This document shows, piece by piece, positions 1,166 through 32,912 of a stretch of DNA of 35,062 bases. Below the pieces are notes generated by a model. The model did not search any database, was not told where the DNA came from, and worked only from the letters and a program-made list of their open reading frames with translations. This DNA is from Fluviicola sp. (GTDB lineage: Bacteria > Bacteroidota > Bacteroidia > Flavobacteriales_D > Crocinitomicaceae). The stretch covers positions 6,229-41,290 of the forward strand of contig NVXP01000037.1 of the NCBI GenBank assembly GCA_002733985.1. Direction: 5' to 3'. How positions within the stretch are numbered: position 1 is the stretch's first letter; the number at the start of each line of letters is the position of its first letter. The translations under genes and the position numbers were made by a program.

Positions 1166-2569
1166 TTATACGCGCACTATTTCGTGCTTCGTATTTTTTC
1201 TCAAAAACAATTTCAATATTGTCCGTGCATCTCGATCGTCAGAAGTTAAATCAATAAATCGATCCCAGTTCTTTGCATGCAAACGATGAAAATGAAATGG
1301 AGCATATCCATATCCGCGAAGCGATCCACCTTCAACATAAACAAGGCTTTTTTCACCTTTAGAACGTCCTTTGTCAATTACGTAGAATGTATCCTTGTTC
1401 ATCAGTAAATCATCGATCAAATCACCACAACGAGCGTTGTAGTCTTCCGTAGATTCTTCCTGAACACAGGCTCCTTTGCATTCTTTGATTTCATAGCGGA
1501 AACAAGAACTCGAAGTCTTATACGTATTGCACAATTTCTGACACAACTCGAACTCCTCAATCATTTGTTCCAACTGATTGGTTCCTTCCTTCTTCGAACT
1601 GAAACTCAAAAGTGGAGCTTCTTGCATTTTCCCAGTAGCAGTAATGTGTAATTGAATGTATCCTCGCTCATCTGTGAATTGATACAGACCATACGGAAAC
1701 TTATTCTTTCGTAAGGCACGATTATATTTAGGCTGATGTTGCTTAATCAATTGACTTTCCAACAAAAGTGCAATCAATTCAGAGCCCGTTAATTCAAATT
1801 CAATGCGCGCAATTTCAAGTTGCATTTCAATGCTCTTCTTCGTTTTGTTATTGCGCAGGTGCTGTTCAATCCGTTTTTTAATGTGAACGCTCTTACCGAT
1901 ATAAATCAACTGATTCGTTTCGTTGAAGAATTTATAGACCCCAGCTTTATCTGGGATATCATCCAATACATCGAGATTGAGATTTGGATGTAGGCGCTTA
2001 GGATTTAATTCTTCTTGAATGAATGTAGCGAGTCCCGCCTCGTCCGTTTCCATTAGAATGGTAAATAATTTTGCTGTTGCCAAAGCATCACCTCCAGCTC
2101 TATGTCGACCGATTAAGTTAATACCGAGACTTCGTGTTAATTTCCCCAAACTATAGGAATCATGACCCGGAAGTACAAAACGTGAAGCGCGGACAGTACA
2201 AAGATGTGGTCTGCGGTAATCAAAACCCAATGTTCGGAATTCGAGACGTATAATACCGTAGTCAAACGCAACATTGTGGGCAACGAAGATGCAATCTTTG
2301 GTAAATTCAACGATGTCTTTCGCGATTTCGTAGAATTTTGGTGAGTCCTTCACCATTTCATCACTAATTCCAGTGAGATTCACAATGAATGGAGGAATTG
2401 GCATTTCTGGGTCGATTAAGGTCTCATACGAGTCGATAACTTCCTTTCCATCGTGCTTGTAAATAGCAATCTCTGTTATCTTCGAGCTTTTTGGAGTTCC
2501 ACCCGTTGTTTCAATATCTATAATCGCATAATTCACAGAGCGAAGGTCAGAAAAAACTATCAGAATCAA
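1166..2569 (-). CDS. DEDDh 3'-5' exonuclease fused to GIY-YIG (UvrC-like) nuclease
   Basis: This 467-residue protein has two nuclease modules. Residues 13-175 form a DnaQ-type DEDDh exonuclease, with D18 and E20 in IIDIETTGG, D103 in AHNVAFDYG, and H156 and D161 in HRAGGDALA. Residues 203-285 form a GIY-YIG endonuclease like the UvrC/Cho N-terminus: AGVYKFF, LIYIGKS, R233, and the ELIALLLESQLIK helix followed by QPKYN. The C-terminal third has a Cys cluster (CFRYEIKECKGAC) in the position of the UvrC Cys-rich segment. Such DnaQ-Cho-like fusions are known in bacteria and are presumed to act in DNA repair. The first possible start at 2569 is TTG; a GTG at 2536, directly before NYAIIDIE, fits the family start better. 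No clear Shine-Dalgarno decides between them. It ends 196 nt from, and convergent with, the preceding gene. Confidence 0.9.
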   Translation of the reverse strand: MILIVFSDLRSVNYAIIDIETTGGTPKSSKITEIAIYKHDGKEVIDSYETLIDPEMPIPPFIVNLTGISDEMVKDSPKFYEIAKDIVEFTKDCIFVAHNVAFDYGIIRLEFRTLGFDYRRPHLCTVRASRFVLPGHDSYSLGKLTRSLGINLIGRHRAGGDALATAKLFTILMETDEAGLATFIQEELNPKRLHPNLNLDVLDDIPDKAGVYKFFNETNQLIYIGKSVHIKKRIEQHLRNNKTKKSIEMQLEIARIEFELTGSELIALLLESQLIKQHQPKYNRALRKNKFPYGLYQFTDERGYIQLHITATGKMQEAPLLSFSSKKEGTNQLEQMIEEFELCQKLCNTYKTSSSCFRYEIKECKGACVQEESTEDYNARCGDLIDDLLMNKDTFYVIDKGRSKGEKSLVYVEGGSLRGYGYAPFHFHRLHAKNWDRFIDLTSDDRDARTILKLFLRKNTKHEIVRV

Positions 2570-21962: not shown

Positions 21963-22874
21963 ATGGGTATCGTTGCCAACCTGTGTTATTCAATTGCTAA
22001 CCGTTACATTGACGGTAAGTTTCGTCGAGCAAAGATGAAACGAAAGTTTCAAGACTCTGAGCAGTATCACATTGAATATTGGGACAACGAAGCGAAGGGG
22101 AAGCCTGTTTTTTTGATCCTACATGGACTTGGGGCTAAAACGAAGTACCAGTGGTATGACCAATTGAAAGTTCTAAAGAATGATTTTCGGATCATTGTCC
22201 CAAATATGCTCCACTTTGGAGATACGCGTCCAACAAAATCAGTACACGGTATTCAAGATCAGGTGAAGATGGTTCAATTTTTCCTAAAAGAATTGGGTGT
22301 TTCTCAGTATCACTTAATGGGTGCTTCCTATGGCGGGTTGATTTCTGGAGAACTTGCTAATCAATACCCTAATCAGGTAGAAATGCTCATTTTGGTCGAT
22401 GCTGCTATCAAATATGTATATGAAAGTGACACTGAACGGATTCTAGAACTTTACGACGTGCCAAGTGTTCCCGAATTTTTCGTTCCTGATTCACATCATG
22501 GTTTGAGAAAATTGGTGGCTGCTTCGGTAGGTAAGAAAGGAATTGTTCCACCTGCATTTACAATGCCACGTTTCCACGAAGAATTGTATGCAAAGAATAT
22601 CAAAGACAAACGCTTGATTGTACATCGCTTGATACAAACCCGTGAAGAGTACGCTACTCGCGAATATAATTTCAAGATGCCTGTCCATTTAATTTGGGGT
22701 GAATTGGATGAGTTGATACCTAAAGACCGAGGACAATTATTCCTGGAACATCTAAAAGGAAAAGCTACGCTTGACATTATCAAAGATGGAGGACACATGC
22801 CGAATATGAACAAAATGAAGGCGTTTAATAGATTATTGGAGAAGTATATAAAGTTGCAGAACGGAGTTAATTAA
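21963..22874 (+). CDS. alpha/beta hydrolase
   Basis: This 303-residue protein has no cleavable signal. It starts MGIVANLCYSIANRYIDG, possibly a weak membrane-associating helix. It shows the oxyanion HGLGAKTKYQW, cap entry MLHFGDTRPTKS, nucleophile elbow MGASYGGLISG, acid in WGELDELIP and His in DGGHMPNMNK. The whole is a canonical Ser-Asp-His hydrolase of about 300 residues, similar to lipase/esterase or haloperoxidase-like members; the Ser nucleophile argues for an esterase or lipase. Its last 8 nt overlap the end of the convergent T9SS gene at 22867. Confidence 0.92.
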   Translation: MGIVANLCYSIANRYIDGKFRRAKMKRKFQDSEQYHIEYWDNEAKGKPVFLILHGLGAKTKYQWYDQLKVLKNDFRIIVPNMLHFGDTRPTKSVHGIQDQVKMVQFFLKELGVSQYHLMGASYGGLISGELANQYPNQVEMLILVDAAIKYVYESDTERILELYDVPSVPEFFVPDSHHGLRKLVAASVGKKGIVPPAFTMPRFHEELYAKNIKDKRLIVHRLIQTREEYATREYNFKMPVHLIWGELDELIPKDRGQLFLEHLKGKATLDIIKDGGHMPNMNKMKAFNRLLEKYIKLQNGVN

Positions 22875-24228
22875 AGATGATTCTTTCACTTTTTCGTTCG
22901 TTCGTTTCCTTAGAATTTGTGAGAATAATATAGAATCCTGTGATCATATTTGGTTCTCTATTTATTTGGTAAATCTCAGTTTCATTCGATATCATGATGG
23001 ATTTAGTGTAAATCATCTGTCCTAAATCATTGTAGATTTCAATAGAATATTCCCCATGCTCGTAATCGCTCAGTTGAATGTTCAGAAGATCCGTAACAGG
23101 GTTCGGATAAATCAGAAGGAGTGGATTCGTATTATTACCATCCAAGGTAACTGGAACAACGTGACTAAAGTTAAAATCACCATTAAAATCTACTTGTTTA
23201 ATGCGATAGTAGTTATCTCCAATTTTCGGATCTGTGTCTTCATGATAATATTCAATAGGCTCGGTGCTTGTTCCTGCTGCACCAACTTCGGCAATCTCTT
23301 CCCAATCGAACAAGTTTGTTGATCGTTCAACTACGAAATAGTCACTATTGTATTCAGTGGCAGTTTCCCAAAATAGATCAACATTTCTTTCGGTATTGAG
23401 TGTCGCTGTAAATACAGTTAGTTCTACAGGAAGGACGACAACTAGAAAATCGGTTTGGACGAAACAATTTATGTCAAATCCATCATTGATTCCTCCATTA
23501 AAAAGTGAGGAACCAACAGGAACAATTTGTAAATGACAATTTACGTCGAATCCATCATTGATGCCTCCATTATAGGGTGAGTAACCGACAGGAATCATTT
23601 GTAAGTAACAATTTACGTCAAATCCATCATTGACTCCTCCTGAATAAATTTGACCTGAGCCAGTAGGTGCTTGTTGTAGGTAACAATATACACTTGCACC
23701 ATCGGAGACACCTCCATTAAATAAGGAAAAGGTTGGTGTAAGATTTTGAGTAAAACAATACACGTCGAACCCATCATTGATTCCACCACTATATATGCCC
23801 GCAGATAACTGTGAAGGTTGTAAAAAACAGTTAAATGCATCACCACTTTCAGCTCCACCGAAGTATAGAAAGTCTGCCGAATTTACTGAGTTTTGAGTAT
23901 AGCAGTTTAGGGCTGTTCCACTATTGCTTCCACCAAAAAAGAACGAACCCGAGTTTTGAAGTTGCTCACTATAACAGCTAACATCCATTCCATCTTCATT
24001 TCCCCCTCCATAAATCCCAAGAACGTTTACGTTATTTTGGAGAAAGCAATTGAAGGTCACTCCATCTTCATTCCCTCCAGTATAAACACCAAAAACGAAT
24101 ACTTCACTTTCTAAAAAACAACTCGTAGCAGTTCCATCCCCATTTCCTCCCGAAAATATAAGTGATTGACTCCATCCAATAGTGCAGATAGAACAATAGA
24201 GAATAAATATTGAGATAGAATACTTCAT
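22867..24228 (-). CDS. GG-DG-Cys repeat protein with type A T9SS sorting domain
   Basis: This 453-residue protein has signal peptide MKYSISIFILYCSICTIGWSQ. Residues 25-258 hold ten repeats, almost all 24 residues long, with consensus [YF]-x-GG-x2-[DS]-G-x4-C-[FY]-x-[QE] (for example YSGGVNDGFDVNCYLQ, FNGGINDGFDINCFVQ). One Cys falls at a fixed place in each. Then comes LPVELTVFTATLNTERNVDL (a common Bacteroidota linker), an FN3-like domain with FWETATEYNSDYFVVERS, and the type A sorting domain (IYPNPVTDLLNIQLSDY, SERIIFN). It should be exported by T9SS. The regular period suggests a solenoid with Cys lined up on one face; the function is unknown. It is cotranscribed, 9 nt apart, with the SUMF1-like gene upstream. 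Confidence 0.9.
   Translation of the reverse strand: MKYSISIFILYCSICTIGWSQSLIFSGGNGDGTATSCFLESEVFVFGVYTGGNEDGVTFNCFLQNNVNVLGIYGGGNEDGMDVSCYSEQLQNSGSFFFGGSNSGTALNCYTQNSVNSADFLYFGGAESGDAFNCFLQPSQLSAGIYSGGINDGFDVYCFTQNLTPTFSLFNGGVSDGASVYCYLQQAPTGSGQIYSGGVNDGFDVNCYLQMIPVGYSPYNGGINDGFDVNCHLQIVPVGSSLFNGGINDGFDINCFVQTDFLVVVLPVELTVFTATLNTERNVDLFWETATEYNSDYFVVERSTNLFDWEEIAEVGAAGTSTEPIEYYHEDTDPKIGDNYYRIKQVDFNGDFNFSHVVPVTLDGNNTNPLLLIYPNPVTDLLNIQLSDYEHGEYSIEIYNDLGQMIYTKSIMISNETEIYQINREPNMITGFYIILTNSKETNERKSERIIFN
23455..24156 (-). repeat. Ten tandem 24-residue GG-x2-[DS]G-x4-C repeats
   Basis: GG pairs fall at residues 27, 51, 75, 99, 124, 148, 172, 197, 221 and 245, so the period is 24 with two 25-residue steps. 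The last units are most alike: the DNA string CCATCATTGA recurs in four of them with near-identical flanks. This suggests recent local amplification at the C-terminal end of the array. Confidence 0.92.
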
Positions 24229-24237
24229 TTGCTCACT

Positions 24238-25773
24238 TTATGGAGCTGTTCTTACGCATCTCCCACCATATACTGTACTTCTTGATATAACTTCAGTATT
24301 AGCATAAGTTCTGTTTGAGACCTGAAGATATAGGGGCGAACTATTCCACGCACCTCCTCTTACCCCAGATGCATCTGCTGTTGTAATTTCTGTTCCTGAG
24401 TTTCCAGGCCACAACAGTTGATTTGCATTTCCTGTGAGCGCCAATTCTCCATCTCCATGATTGCCATCATAAGCCAAACCATTTGCATCTCCCAGAGTGA
24501 CAACCATTTCATTAACGTTACCAGAAAGTTCCATAATCCCATAATAACTCCCTCCAGTTTCTTCTCGTGTATTATTTGCACTGCTTGAAGCGAAAATTCC
24601 GCACCTAACTGGACCTGACGGATCAGTTGTACTGTAATTTGCATTTCCAGTAGAGGTTCCCATGTTTGTAATAGCTTCAGATCCTGTTCCGTCCATAGAA
24701 AGGGTGTAAAGTGCAGCATAAATAGATGTTGATCCCCATGCAAATTCATTGAGAACAGATGTGATTTGCCCACGACATGATTTTTCGTATTCCAATTCTG
24801 TCATGGGGCGTAACCCTGTCCAATCTGCATAAGCTGATAAGTCCATCCAATTAAGTCGTCCGCAGGCTCTGTTAGGTGTTAATGTGGTCCAGTTGTTTCC
24901 TGTTCCAGTCATGTTGTGCCTGCTTGTCGTTAATGCTGTCATTCTGAGAGTACCCTGCCCAATGGTCAGCTTGTTTAAAAAATCGACGTATTGTCCTTGG
25001 CTAATTTCATATTTCATAGTGTAAAAGGAGTTATACCCTGTAGGGAAATTCGGGTTGTCTCCGGGATCTGTGACGTCTCCATCATTGTTGATGTCTAACC
25101 CTCCATCACCATCAATTCCAATCCCAGGACTTGTCAAGGGAACAGCATCTGTATTCGTTGTTTGTACATCATTAATAATCGAAGTGCTAATCGTAACATA
25201 GTTATTCGTTGTTCCAATTTCAAATGCATTGGTAGAATGTGTGGTTCCATTCCCATCTCCTAAAGTGAAATCACCTTGAGGTACATAGACCATTTCTACA
25301 GCGTAAACACAAATTTCAACACTGTCATTGTCGGCTAGTCCGTCAATACCATAGTCCCAGAGCATCTGAAGGTTGTTGAAGTCATTGTTTCCGAATCCGT
25401 CAGTATCTCGATATAAGAAAATCCCTTTTCCATCCGATACTGCTGATACTTGGCTTCCAGCAGGAGCGACATGGTTCCCATCGACGGAACTTAATGTAGC
25501 ATGTTCCCAAAGCGTTCCACTGGTTAGTCTATACTTTGCAAAAAGCCAGACTGCGTCCCAGTTATTAGGAGAGGCAGAGGTTCGCCAACTGTTTTCCCAA
25601 CTAACATCTAATTCAATAAATTTAGTGTCAGAAGCATTGTTTTGCCCTGTAATACTAATGTTTTCTACTTCTACATTGTTTGCGAAAACAGAAGAGAAGA
25701 GGGACATGGAAATTGCAATTGCGATTGAAATATATTTGTATGTCGTCATAGGCTCTATTATCGATTTATTCAT
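24238..25773 (-). CDS. Secreted SUMF1/formylglycine-generating-enzyme-like protein
   Basis: The protein is 511 residues from ATG 25773; an ATG at 25749 (MTTYKYISIAIAISMSLFSS) would also give a good signal peptide, cleaved near VFAN. Residues about 36-158 form a beta-rich domain (ELDVSWENSWRTS, WDAVWLFAKYRL, GIFLYRDTDGFG). Residues about 160-508 form a SUMF1/FGE-type domain: MVYVPQGDFTLGDG, FYTMKYEISQGQYVDFLN, MDLSAYADWTGLRPMTELEY, FAWG, YGIMELSGNVNEMVV, VRGGAWN, SNRTY and GGRCVR. The paired active-site Cys of true FGE, which lie after RGGS-x3-C, are absent here (GGAWNSSPLYLQVSNRT). Classical formylglycine formation is therefore unlikely; GldJ/GldK of the gliding machinery are other non-enzymatic relatives. 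It has no T9SS domain. First gene of the operon with the repeat protein. Confidence 0.9.
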   Translation of the reverse strand: MNKSIIEPMTTYKYISIAIAISMSLFSSVFANNVEVENISITGQNNASDTKFIELDVSWENSWRTSASPNNWDAVWLFAKYRLTSGTLWEHATLSSVDGNHVAPAGSQVSAVSDGKGIFLYRDTDGFGNNDFNNLQMLWDYGIDGLADNDSVEICVYAVEMVYVPQGDFTLGDGNGTTHSTNAFEIGTTNNYVTISTSIINDVQTTNTDAVPLTSPGIGIDGDGGLDINNDGDVTDPGDNPNFPTGYNSFYTMKYEISQGQYVDFLNKLTIGQGTLRMTALTTSRHNMTGTGNNWTTLTPNRACGRLNWMDLSAYADWTGLRPMTELEYEKSCRGQITSVLNEFAWGSTSIYAALYTLSMDGTGSEAITNMGTSTGNANYSTTDPSGPVRCGIFASSSANNTREETGGSYYGIMELSGNVNEMVVTLGDANGLAYDGNHGDGELALTGNANQLLWPGNSGTEITTADASGVRGGAWNSSPLYLQVSNRTYANTEVISRSTVYGGRCVRTAP

Positions 25774-26050: not shown

Positions 26051-26416
26051 ATGAATAATTACACAGTTATTAGTGAAGGCGGATCGGGAGGAAACGGTTT
26101 CGAAATGCAATCAATTAAATCGATCGGCTTGCGATCAGGAAAGTATGTTGATCAAATTACAATCAATGGAGTTTCTCATGGAGAAAACGGTGGTGCTGAT
26201 AGAGGTACTTTAACACTGGAGGATGGTGAGTACGTAACAAGTATTGTTGTCCGTTCCGGGAGTCTCATTGATTATGTAGAATTCAATACGAATTTTAATA
26301 ACCAGATCAAAGGTGGTGGAGAAGGTGGAAATAAACACACTGTTTCTGGAAATCTTGTCGCAATTGATGGGAGGTCAGGGAAGTATGTTGATCAATTAAA
26401 TTTCCTAATAGATTAA
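26051..26416 (+). CDS. Jacalin-like lectin domain protein
   Basis: This 121-residue protein is a single jacalin-like lectin domain with no signal peptide, so probably cytoplasmic or released in a non-classical way. Family marks are GGSGGNGFEMQSIKSIGLRS, GKYVDQITING, the ENGGADRGTLTLEDGEYV segment with the GEY-V-T-S turn, YVEFNTNF, IKGGGEGGNKH, and a closing GRSGKYVDQLNFLID that echoes the first GKYVDQI. Jacalin-type domains form beta-prisms that bind mannose or galactose at the N-terminal GG loop and the G-x3-D type loop near the C-terminus; the final GRSGKYVDQL fits that loop. The ligand is unknown. It stands alone, divergent from the SUMF1-like operon and followed by a strong terminator. 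Confidence 0.88.
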   Translation: MNNYTVISEGGSGGNGFEMQSIKSIGLRSGKYVDQITINGVSHGENGGADRGTLTLEDGEYVTSIVVRSGSLIDYVEFNTNFNNQIKGGGEGGNKHTVSGNLVAIDGRSGKYVDQLNFLID

Positions 26417-29687: not shown

Positions 29688-32600
29688 TTATTGTTTAATT
29701 ACTTTATGGCTTGACGTATTACCGTTTATGGAATGAATTATCACGAAATATATTCCAGGTGATAAATCTGTTCTAAGACTAATTTGGTCAATCGGCTCGG
29801 TCAATTTTTGTGTACGTACAACCTCTCCTGAAAGTGAATGAATACTAATAGAATTAATTCCTTCACTCTCAATATTCAACGTTTCTGAAAAAGGATTTGG
29901 AGCAATAATAACTTGGTCTCCTATTTCTAAATTACTACCTAAATTTTTAGGTCTCCCGATTATAGCAGTTGTTGAGCCAGATGCGCATGTAGAAAACGGT
30001 GATGAGTTTGTTCCTCCAATTGAGCCTCCTCCAGCCCCAATAAATGTTGCTTTGACTTTGAATTCGTAGGTAGTTTGCTGACTTAAACCGCTAACCGTGT
30101 AGTTGGTTGTAGCTGAAGAAGCTGAGCCAATAACCCCTCCAGAACAATATTCGAGGAGATATCCTGTGCATCCTGTTATTGGTGTCCATGAAAGACTAAT
30201 GGTACTGGATGTTGATCCAGTTACGCTGAGAACCGGTGTTTCCAATCCTGTCATTCCATCTTCACAATTGCTCCATTCTGATTGATTCCAAGGATGTTGT
30301 GGTTTAATTTTGAATTCATAGACAGTTCCAGGATTCAAACCTCCAATAATGTATGACGTCGAGCTCGTATTAGCAACGAAGCCATTGGCGCAATCTTCTA
30401 TTAAGTAACTAGTTGCACTTGCAACAGGATTCCATTCTAATTCAATTTGTGTGGTTGATACTGTAGATGTCCAAATTGCTGTTGGAGCATTTAGCCAAGT
30501 ATAGTCAGAAGCACAAGTGGAAAAATCGGAAGTTGCATTTCCATTAATGGATGTAGAAGGGGGAAGTAAGGGGGAAACATATGATGCTATTACTTTATAG
30601 CTGTAACTGCTATTCGGAAGCAAGCCTGAAACTGAATAAGATGTGGAAGTCGTATTAGCAATAAATGTTCCTCCGCAGCTGTATAGGTTATATGATGTAG
30701 CAGACGTTACTTGAGACCAAGATACATTTACTGTCGAAGAAGAGGTACCTGTCACATTAAGTCCAGTAGGCGTTTGTAGTTTTGTAAATGTATTTACACA
30801 GGTCGATAATTTTGATTCGGTATTATTATTTTTCCCTTGAACTTTATACTGGTAAAGTACACCTTCGCTCAAACCTCCAATAATCATAGAAGGATCTCCT
30901 AGTCCTGTCGAGGAAATAAATGTTCCTGTGCAATCATAAACATCATAATAATCAGCTCCTTGAACATTATCCCATGATAATTCTGCTTCTGAAGTTGATA
31001 TTGGTGTACTGATTAAATTTTGTGGCGTAGGTAACAAAGTAAACGTACTTGCAGGACTTGTAAAACTAGATGCTGTGAGTGGTGTAGTCTGACGAATTTT
31101 ATAGGAATAGTTCGAATTGGGATTTAGCCCGTTTACGAGATGAAAATTGCCCGTGGTATTTACAATAAATGTACCAGCAGTTGAGAATACTTCAATAAGT
31201 CCAGAAGGACCAGTATTGGAAGTCCATTCTAGTAAAATAGAATTGTCTGAAATAGCAGTAGCTACCAGTCCTGTTGGAGTTTCTGGTAGTGTTATAGTGG
31301 ATTGACAGTTCGATTTCAGTGAATGATTGCTCGTGCTAATAGCCTTTATTTGGTAATAATATTGGGTTGCTTGATTTAAACCTGTATGAATAAATGAAGT
31401 CGAAGTTGTTGAAGAAATGTAATTATTTGAACAATCGTAGATCTCATATTCGCTAGCTGAAGTTATTGAGGCCCAGTCAATTTGAATCTCGGTTTCAGAA
31501 AGTGCCAAACAGTTTATTATCGGTGTGTTTAGTAAAGTTGTTGCGCTAGCGCAAGTGGTTTGTGCTGATTCTCCAGAATTGTTTAAGGCACTAACTTTGT
31601 ATTCATAAAAAGTGTTTGGATTCAAGTTGTTTATTGCAATTGAAGAGTTCGTTGAATTATACAAGTAAGACGAAGTAGTACAATCATAGATTTTATAAGC
31701 AGTAGCTCCCGAAATTGATGACCATGAAAGTCCAATTTGGTTAGGGCCAGTTCCTGATGCAACAAGACCTGTTGGGGTCGATGGCACTGTTGTCACATTT
31801 ATATTCGCGGGGTCCGAATTACAAGGTATACCAGTTCGAATCACTTGAATATTGTGATTCGCCCCAGGGGTTAATCCAGTTAATGAATAATTAGTAGAGT
31901 TAACGCTTCCTACAGAAACACTATTTACAAGAATATTATATGGAACACTTGAACTACCGCTCCAAGTTAAATTTGCAGATGTCGTGGTGATTCCTGAAAC
32001 ATTTAAATTCAGAGGTACTGGTAAACAGGTCGCGATAGGAATGCTCGAACTGAAAGGTCCGACTCCGCAATCATTTTTTCCACGTACCTTAAAGGTATAC
32101 GAAGTATTTGAGTTTAAGGTAGCGGTGTAGTTGTTGGTTGCAGATGATCCAATAAAGGAACCATTTCTGAAAATATCGTATGAGGTAGCATCTGGAATCT
32201 GGGTCCATGTCAAATTCGCACCAGAGCTTGTAATTCCAGAAATGTTTAAACTTGCAGGGGCAACTGCAACAGCGCCACAGTCATATGTGATAGTTGCTGA
32301 TATACTTTCAATGTTTAAGGTACCTACCGCTCCGATTAGTCCAATTGTGAAATTGGTTGCGTTCGTTTCAAAGTTAGCGATTGTAGTAGAGGGAAATCCA
32401 GATGTCGATTGATCATAAATAAGCAACGTTTCTGTGATATTGGTAATGCTATTTGTTCCTATTCCGCTATTAAAAACAATGTTTCCCCATTGAATCGCAT
32501 TGAATAAATCTTCTTGTTCAGAAGAATTTAATGTGCTGTTCCATGGAACGCTATTATTCATGCCAATAGAAGGCACGACAACATTTGCAATGGATGCACC

Positions 32601-32912
32601 TGCCCCAGAATTTAAGTCGCTGTAGGTTATCGTAAGCAGTAATTGAGTGATGTCTGCATTCTCGAAAGCTGGATGATTAAAATAGAAACGAATATTTTGA
32701 TAATTCCCATTTCCAGATGCATAATTATAAATTGTCTTACTGGCGTTTGAGTTGCCACTAAAGTAAGTGAGACTACCGCCAGATGCATTAGTTTGTTTCT
32801 TTACCCATTGTTCATTTTGAGGCGAAAGTGTGACGGTTTCGAGTTGTGAAAATCCAATCATTGAGAAGGCAATAACAGCTACCCAACTCGTGTAAAGGTG
32901 TAATTTAGTCAT
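29688..32912 (-). CDS. Nine-FN3-domain T9SS (type A) secreted protein
   Basis: This 1074-residue protein has signal peptide MTKLHLYTSWVAVIAFSMIGFSQ. Residues about 24-215 form an unassigned beta-rich domain (FYFNHPAFENADITQLLLTI, LIGAVGTLNIESISATITYD). Nine fibronectin type III domains follow from about 218 to 970, each with a 'P-x-N-L-x(10-15)-L-x-W' strand and a 'Y-x-Y-K-V' strand (SANLTWSGSS, IGLSWSSISG, VNVSWSQVTS, IELEWNPVAS, ISLSWTPITG). Six of them share Cys in 'YDC' and near the domain end, giving likely disulfides. The C-terminus is a type A sorting domain (IIAPNPFSETLNIES, LSPGIYFVIIHS, SSHKVIKQ). Predicted cell-surface or secreted. It is bracketed by 26-bp direct repeats and runs opposite to both neighbours. 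The role (adhesion or binding) is inference. Confidence 0.92.
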   Translation of the reverse strand: MTKLHLYTSWVAVIAFSMIGFSQLETVTLSPQNEQWVKKQTNASGGSLTYFSGNSNASKTIYNYASGNGNYQNIRFYFNHPAFENADITQLLLTITYSDLNSGAGASIANVVVPSIGMNNSVPWNSTLNSSEQEDLFNAIQWGNIVFNSGIGTNSITNITETLLIYDQSTSGFPSTTIANFETNATNFTIGLIGAVGTLNIESISATITYDCGAVAVAPASLNISGITSSGANLTWTQIPDATSYDIFRNGSFIGSSATNNYTATLNSNTSYTFKVRGKNDCGVGPFSSSIPIATCLPVPLNLNVSGITTTSANLTWSGSSSVPYNILVNSVSVGSVNSTNYSLTGLTPGANHNIQVIRTGIPCNSDPANINVTTVPSTPTGLVASGTGPNQIGLSWSSISGATAYKIYDCTTSSYLYNSTNSSIAINNLNPNTFYEYKVSALNNSGESAQTTCASATTLLNTPIINCLALSETEIQIDWASITSASEYEIYDCSNNYISSTTSTSFIHTGLNQATQYYYQIKAISTSNHSLKSNCQSTITLPETPTGLVATAISDNSILLEWTSNTGPSGLIEVFSTAGTFIVNTTGNFHLVNGLNPNSNYSYKIRQTTPLTASSFTSPASTFTLLPTPQNLISTPISTSEAELSWDNVQGADYYDVYDCTGTFISSTGLGDPSMIIGGLSEGVLYQYKVQGKNNNTESKLSTCVNTFTKLQTPTGLNVTGTSSSTVNVSWSQVTSATSYNLYSCGGTFIANTTSTSYSVSGLLPNSSYSYKVIASYVSPLLPPSTSINGNATSDFSTCASDYTWLNAPTAIWTSTVSTTQIELEWNPVASATSYLIEDCANGFVANTSSTSYIIGGLNPGTVYEFKIKPQHPWNQSEWSNCEDGMTGLETPVLSVTGSTSSTISLSWTPITGCTGYLLEYCSGGVIGSASSATTNYTVSGLSQQTTYEFKVKATFIGAGGGSIGGTNSSPFSTCASGSTTAIIGRPKNLGSNLEIGDQVIIAPNPFSETLNIESEGINSISIHSLSGEVVRTQKLTEPIDQISLRTDLSPGIYFVIIHSINGNTSSHKVIKQ

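Follow-up and report, generated by a model that had tools for sequence, protein, structure and literature searches.

A SUMF1-like protein and a cysteine-repeat protein encoded as a conserved gene pair, with a possible role in surface display

Layout and conservation of the gene pair

The window analysed here, the whole 35,062-nucleotide (nt) stretch of contig NVXP01000037.1 from Fluviicola sp., carries on its minus strand a gene for a SUMF1-like protein (24238..25773; 511 amino acids, aa), hereafter the head, and, downstream of it in the same frame after a gap of 9 nt, a minus-strand gene for a repeat protein (22867..24228; 453 aa), hereafter the scaffold. The head starts with a signal peptide, recognised by eye, and its residues 248–508 (24250..25032) match the Pfam FGE-sulfatase domain (PF03781, E 5.3e-12) and take the FGE fold, a C-type-lectin fold, in the AlphaFold2 model. 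The scaffold consists of a signal peptide, likewise recognised by eye, ten repeats of about 24 residues with the consensus GGxx[DS]G-x4-C immediately after it (23443..24165), a spacer, VELTVFTA...WETATEYNSDYF... (23113..23442), that is common to many other type IX secretion system (T9SS) proteins of the same genome, and a T9SS C-terminal sorting domain (residues 373–445, 22894..23112). An earlier note, made from the letters of this DNA alone, had described two genes 9 nt apart, one with ten GG-type cysteine (Cys) repeats and a T9SS domain and the other with a SUMF1/FGE fold, and this description was confirmed by the open reading frames (ORFs) and Pfam matches.

The repeats of the scaffold follow each other mostly at a spacing of 72 nt, with adjacent repeats up to 83% identical in DNA. 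Their cysteines lie at residues 37, 61, 85, 109, 134, 158, 182, 207, 231 and 255, and the mature protein contains exactly ten Cys, one per repeat and none elsewhere. The repeats matched nothing in Pfam, NCBIfam, PHROGs, PADLOC or PDB sequences, in line with the remark in the earlier note that no described repeat family with such a consensus is known. RTX-like calcium repeats, suggested by the GGxGxD look, were considered and rejected, as no RTX model matched. The C-terminal tail matched Pfam Por_Secre_tail (E 2.2e-9, 37.9 bits against a cut-off of 27) as well as TIGR04183, and by this sorting domain the scaffold is a predicted T9SS cargo; a T9SS sorting domain was also found in 46 of the 76 partner proteins.

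Ahead of its FGE-fold domain the head contains a separate beta-rich domain of about 140 aa (residues 31–172, 25258..25683), which the earlier note had missed. This domain is kept in all relatives, forms strands in the model, holds the covarying cysteine described below and is proposed here as the docking domain. It had no Pfam or PDB sequence match, and none of the VIA-align matches listed isolates it.

Scanning the SUMF1-like alignment over 84,980 species genomes gave at least 545 relatives, with 79 loci kept, in Bacteroidota, Ignavibacteriota, KSB1, Cloacimonadota, Omnitrophota and others, and the N-terminal domain was carried by about 7% of the phylum genomes and 19% of the class genomes sampled; viral contigs held no relatives. 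Among 60 near relatives, repeat arrays were found in the window's own genome and in genomes G031, which falls in the window's genus, G035 and G054, with a SUMF1-like gene directly upstream in all four. In a reverse search over 199 genomes from a single family, with the repeat arrays as starting point, all 11 true arrays lay directly downstream of a SUMF1-like gene (four further matches, which were not motif arrays, were left out), and 395 genomes of the phylum held just two arrays, the window's own and one in G236, both adjoining such a gene. A secreted protein in which GGxx[DRNSGKE]G stands just after the signal peptide followed 96 of 140 SUMF1-N ORFs (those with room for a downstream gene, including added whole-genome matches) as compared to 32 of 368 signal-peptide-like control ORFs, a count that ignores kinship. 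The constant element of the family is a Gly-Gly-x-x-Asp/Arg-Gly motif at the mature N-terminus of the protein adjoining the SUMF1-N protein, which occurs once in L027, L052 and many proteins of the GGNGRGD kind and up to about sixteen times elsewhere (L030), with ten copies in the window. The motif Cys is absent in most partners (Kordia, Lewinella, Lacinutrix, Ignavibacteria), so the Cys row is a lineage feature. The SUMF1-like neighbour accompanying the arrays in the reverse searches, together with the failure of the repeats to match any described domain, upholds the idea of a linked system advanced in the earlier note, and that the two genes form a conserved pair is practically certain. No description of the pair was found in the open-access literature searched.

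Other genes were also seen after some heads. Those at L210, L212, L213 and L214 are followed by large secreted proteins starting LTSPNGGExW, another possible partner type, and at L194, L195, L197 and L198, in four related genomes, a threonine dehydratase-like gene comes directly after the head, with no motif protein.

Cysteine covariation and predicted docking

In 95 pairs of head and partner, a repeat Cys at about position +10 of the motif and head Cys155 (codon 25309..25311) occurred together in 15 of 15 cases, and neither was present in the other 80 of 80. Similarly, head Cys84 and a repeat Cys between +13 and +18 were found together in 11 of 11 cases, with neither in the other 84 of 84; the offset ranges were picked after inspection of the same 95 pairs. 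Both head cysteines lie in the N-terminal domain, Cys155 thereby outside the FGE domain and not in a CxxC, and the remaining Cys columns showed no covariation, leaving the two position pairs specific. With the two Cys columns left out of the tree, the Cys155/+10 trait changed six times, each time jointly in head and repeat, and well-supported branches require at least three of these changes; the Cys84 trait changed once.

Applied unchanged to 63 held-out pairs, the rule held up for the most part, with some exceptions. Of the positives for Cys84, 21 were concordant and 6 discordant (p 5e-11); of those for Cys155, 2 were concordant and 3 discordant (p 0.009). The discordant L342 does have a Cys in the corresponding loop, displaced in the alignment, and L289 and L290 had been scored as partnerless, the pattern having missed their Cys-type partners. 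For L034, where the head has Cys155 and no repeat gene is adjacent, a Cys-repeat gene was predicted and then found on the same contig, about 3 kb downstream and behind a diversity-generating retroelement (DGR) cassette, with repeats GGNDDGFSVICY. The mature partner at L027 contains a single Cys, which therefore pairs with another protein, stays free or is modified, internal pairing being impossible. The simplest reading of these patterns is that an intermolecular disulfide would form between the N-terminal domain of the head and each repeat, at a position differing by lineage, and for the lineage of the window we consider such a disulfide rather more probable than not.

Since the two window genes share one frame, the read-through chain of both could be folded as a joint model, for which it was given to AlphaFold2 with 22 other paired rows. 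The model had a mean predicted local distance difference test score (pLDDT) of 89 and a predicted template modelling score of 0.89. In it the first repeat (residues 21–42, 24103..24168) is ordered, with a block pLDDT of about 73–81 and a strand, T33–L39, that holds Cys37, while the intervening signal peptide and the second repeat fall below 50. That the first repeat is ordered and the same motif in the second is disordered fits a dock of the repeat on the head. Direct docking of head and repeat appears likely.

Several observations weigh against a direct dock or against its generality. After correction for the tree the independent Cys events are few, and a sign test is unable to reach 0.05. 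Corrected mutual information gave noise outside the Cys pair, with no enrichment for the N-terminal domain, which supplied 12 of the 30 top pairs against 32% of the columns. The Cys-less pair L058, folded by the same AlphaFold2 design, left the motif disordered and undocked, so that structure modelling of the pair, named in the earlier note as a check, spoke for docking in the window and not in L058, one case of two. Among the held-out pairs, L335, L346 and L353 combine Cys84 heads with a different partner of about 1500 aa starting PxNDxCxNA, and L232 (Cys155) and L325 (Cys84) are true exceptions, both with Cys-less repeats. Finally, about a third of the heads have no motif neighbour. A possible alternative is that the covariation is indirect, either through a common third partner or through Cys traits that track the same redox habitat, for which the few independent origins and the docking not reproduced in L058 both speak. 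It is, however, hard to reconcile with two distinct position pairs that covary specifically when other Cys columns do not, or with the predicted gene found at L034, and we regard it as improbable.

Two side observations concern these cysteines. L181 combines a head Cys150 with a repeat Cys at motif +12; in the first set neither occurs anywhere else, and the two may constitute a third pair. Cys84-type heads at L335, L336, L346, L348, L349, L351, L353 and L360, often in tandem, are followed by proteins of about 1500 aa starting QPxNDxCxNAxxI, which may be an alternative partner whose N-terminal Cys pairs with Cys84.

The FGE-fold domain of the head

The FGE-fold domain of the window head is about equally close to FGE, PorK, PvdO and a DGR variable protein of Treponema denticola (Z 19 to 20). 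In human FGE the copper-binding catalytic Cys pair is Cys336/Cys341. This pair, taken as GG-x(1-5)-C-x(3-6)-C, was found in 0 of 108 aligned relatives, the window having RGGAWNSSPLYLQVSNR there, and its site (residues 477–484 and 489–502) is highly variable and flanked by constant RGG, SxR and GxRxxR. The head also fell far below the cut-offs of the family models for EgtB (15.4 against 360 bits), SenA (21.8 against 420 bits) and GldK (16 against 350 bits). Some heads carry extra lectin-fold-like domains, and Bacteroidales heads at L067, L073 and L049 are extended by further domains and a C-terminal Hint/intein-like stretch (CFVAGTKIxMADGSxKNIEDVxVGDxVKS...NGxLVHN) that is perhaps self-cleaving.

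At L034, L081 and L084 the variable stretch at the site of the FGE Cys pair is a DGR variable region. The mismatches between variable region and template repeat fell at template adenines in 24 of 24 (L034), 17 of 17 (L081) and 13 of 13 (L084) cases, a reverse transcriptase was present at all three loci, Avd (bAvd) was matched at L034 and L081, and in these last two the DGR cassette is followed by a motif-bearing surface protein. Within the window, the counterpart of the variable region comprises residues of about 472–508 (24250..24360). A DGR acting on the window gene was considered and rejected, since no template for the C-terminal stretch is present in the genome, and the window head is therefore fixed. 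FGE-type DGR targets are already known (PMC3521204), and DGR variable regions are located in C-type-lectin folds (PMC8144416). As three relatives are DGR variable proteins, a role of the FGE-fold domain as a ligand-binding head is probable, and hypermutation within this region of the relatives fits binding and not catalysis; the balance tips towards heads that bind a ligand.

Two further observations were made on the DGR components. At L084 a stand-alone MutS domain I (1887..2228, 113 aa) is flanked by the DGR variable gene and by an Avd-like gene, and the sole reverse transcriptase match of the window's genome (L112, G000:C43:2227-2916) falls within an open frame of 1886 aa, unusual for a bacterial reverse transcriptase.

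The earlier note had suggested that the SUMF1-like protein may modify, oxidise or dock onto the row of cysteines. As an enzyme it could generate formylglycine as FGE does, oxidise thiols or form mixed disulfides through Cys155, and its FGE fold, the strict gene linkage expected of an enzyme and its substrate, and the single free Cys on each side, which could give a transient mixed disulfide, would all be in keeping with this. Most partners, however, lack any Cys to be modified, the catalytic pair is missing throughout the aligned relatives, the covarying Cys sits in the N-terminal domain, outside the FGE domain and without a CxxC, EgtB and SenA chemistry finds no support in the family models, and the DGR hypermutation in relatives suits binding. 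An enzymatic role thus seems very unlikely, and the suggestion of modification or oxidation was not sustained, whereas that of docking gained support from the Cys–Cys covariation. The matching Cys in the head and the absent catalytic pair argue for docking, locked by a disulfide in some lineages, rather than for modification.

A possible display module and its known counterparts

From these lines of evidence we favour, with some reserve, a non-enzymatic two-gene module for surface display, in which a T9SS scaffold would carry several C-type-lectin-fold heads. Both proteins would enter the periplasm through their signal peptides, where the N-terminal domain of the head would bind one repeat of the row at the mature N-terminus of the scaffold. 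In several lineages, including that of the window, a disulfide from head Cys155 (Cys84 in other lineages) to the repeat Cys would lock the dock. The T9SS would then export the scaffold via its tail with the bound heads carried along, and one scaffold at the surface could bear up to ten lectin-fold heads, one per repeat. Heads usually have no T9SS tail of their own, and their presence at the surface would be explained if binding precedes export. We infer the physical dock, the disulfide, the occupancy of one head per repeat, the piggyback export and the ligand binding from sequence and models, and consider a surface location of the heads an evenly balanced matter.

The signal peptide of the head combined with the usual lack of a T9SS tail could also mean that it acts in the periplasm as a chaperone of the scaffold or as its T9SS escort, holding the motif until export and itself staying behind there. 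The position of the motif at the mature N-terminus and the FGE fold shared with the T9SS ring proteins PorK/GldK would suit such an escort. Up to 16 docking repeats would nevertheless be unnecessary for it, a stable disulfide would impede release, and the DGR variation and extra lectin-fold-like domains of the heads are better suited to surface display, so that an escort role appears unlikely and display remains the preferred explanation.

More tentatively, and a little short of an even call, the pair could represent an undescribed cross-phylum system for receptor display, in which a scaffold exported by the T9SS (or an equivalent), a new docking domain, lineage-specific disulfides and, in some cases, DGR-hypermutated heads would together give multivalent variable receptors. 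If true, this would provide a function and a binding partner for many proteins known merely as SUMF1/FGE-like, establish both a docking repeat and a docking domain that are new, and reveal the way in which some bacteria display their DGR-diversified lectin-fold proteins.

Elsewhere in the window, a gene divergent from the head gene (26051..26416, plus strand) encodes a small jacalin-like lectin of 121 aa (Pfam Jacalin, E 1e-12) in which no signal peptide was seen, and a T9SS protein of 1074 aa with nine fibronectin type III domains is encoded at 29688..32912 (minus strand).

Of the known systems, TvpA of Treponema denticola and its kin, which are DGR variable proteins, have the same FGE-type C-type-lectin fold (2y3c, Z 19.0), and three full-length relatives of the head carry DGR variable regions in the matching C-terminal position. 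In contrast to these proteins, the window head has no template repeat for its gene anywhere in the genome, and the heads come with a conserved partner bearing putative docking repeats; neither such a partner nor any display partner for DGR lectin-fold proteins was found described in the open-access literature searched. The T9SS and gliding-motor proteins GldK/PorK also share the FGE fold with the head (PorK, Z 19.7), and GldK makes intermolecular disulfides with SprF and PorG (PMC12635249). This is a precedent within the same phylum for an intermolecular disulfide of an FGE-fold protein, though at a different place, as the covarying Cys of the window lies in a separate N-terminal domain and the partner is a repeat-bearing predicted T9SS cargo. 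FGE/SUMF1 and EgtB/OvoA have both the fold and the Pfam family in common with the head, FGE structures matching at Z of about 19; the head differs from FGE/SUMF1 in its missing catalytic Cys pair and from EgtB/SenA in its low family scores. No Pfam match to cohesin or dockerin was found in either window protein or among the families listed for the 76 partners. In the cohesin–dockerin arrangement of the cellulosome, a surface scaffold offers repeated docking sites for a separate protein. The proposed module would resemble it in the repeated docking sites of its scaffold, while differing in that these are short motif repeats and that some of the docks are apparently locked by disulfides.

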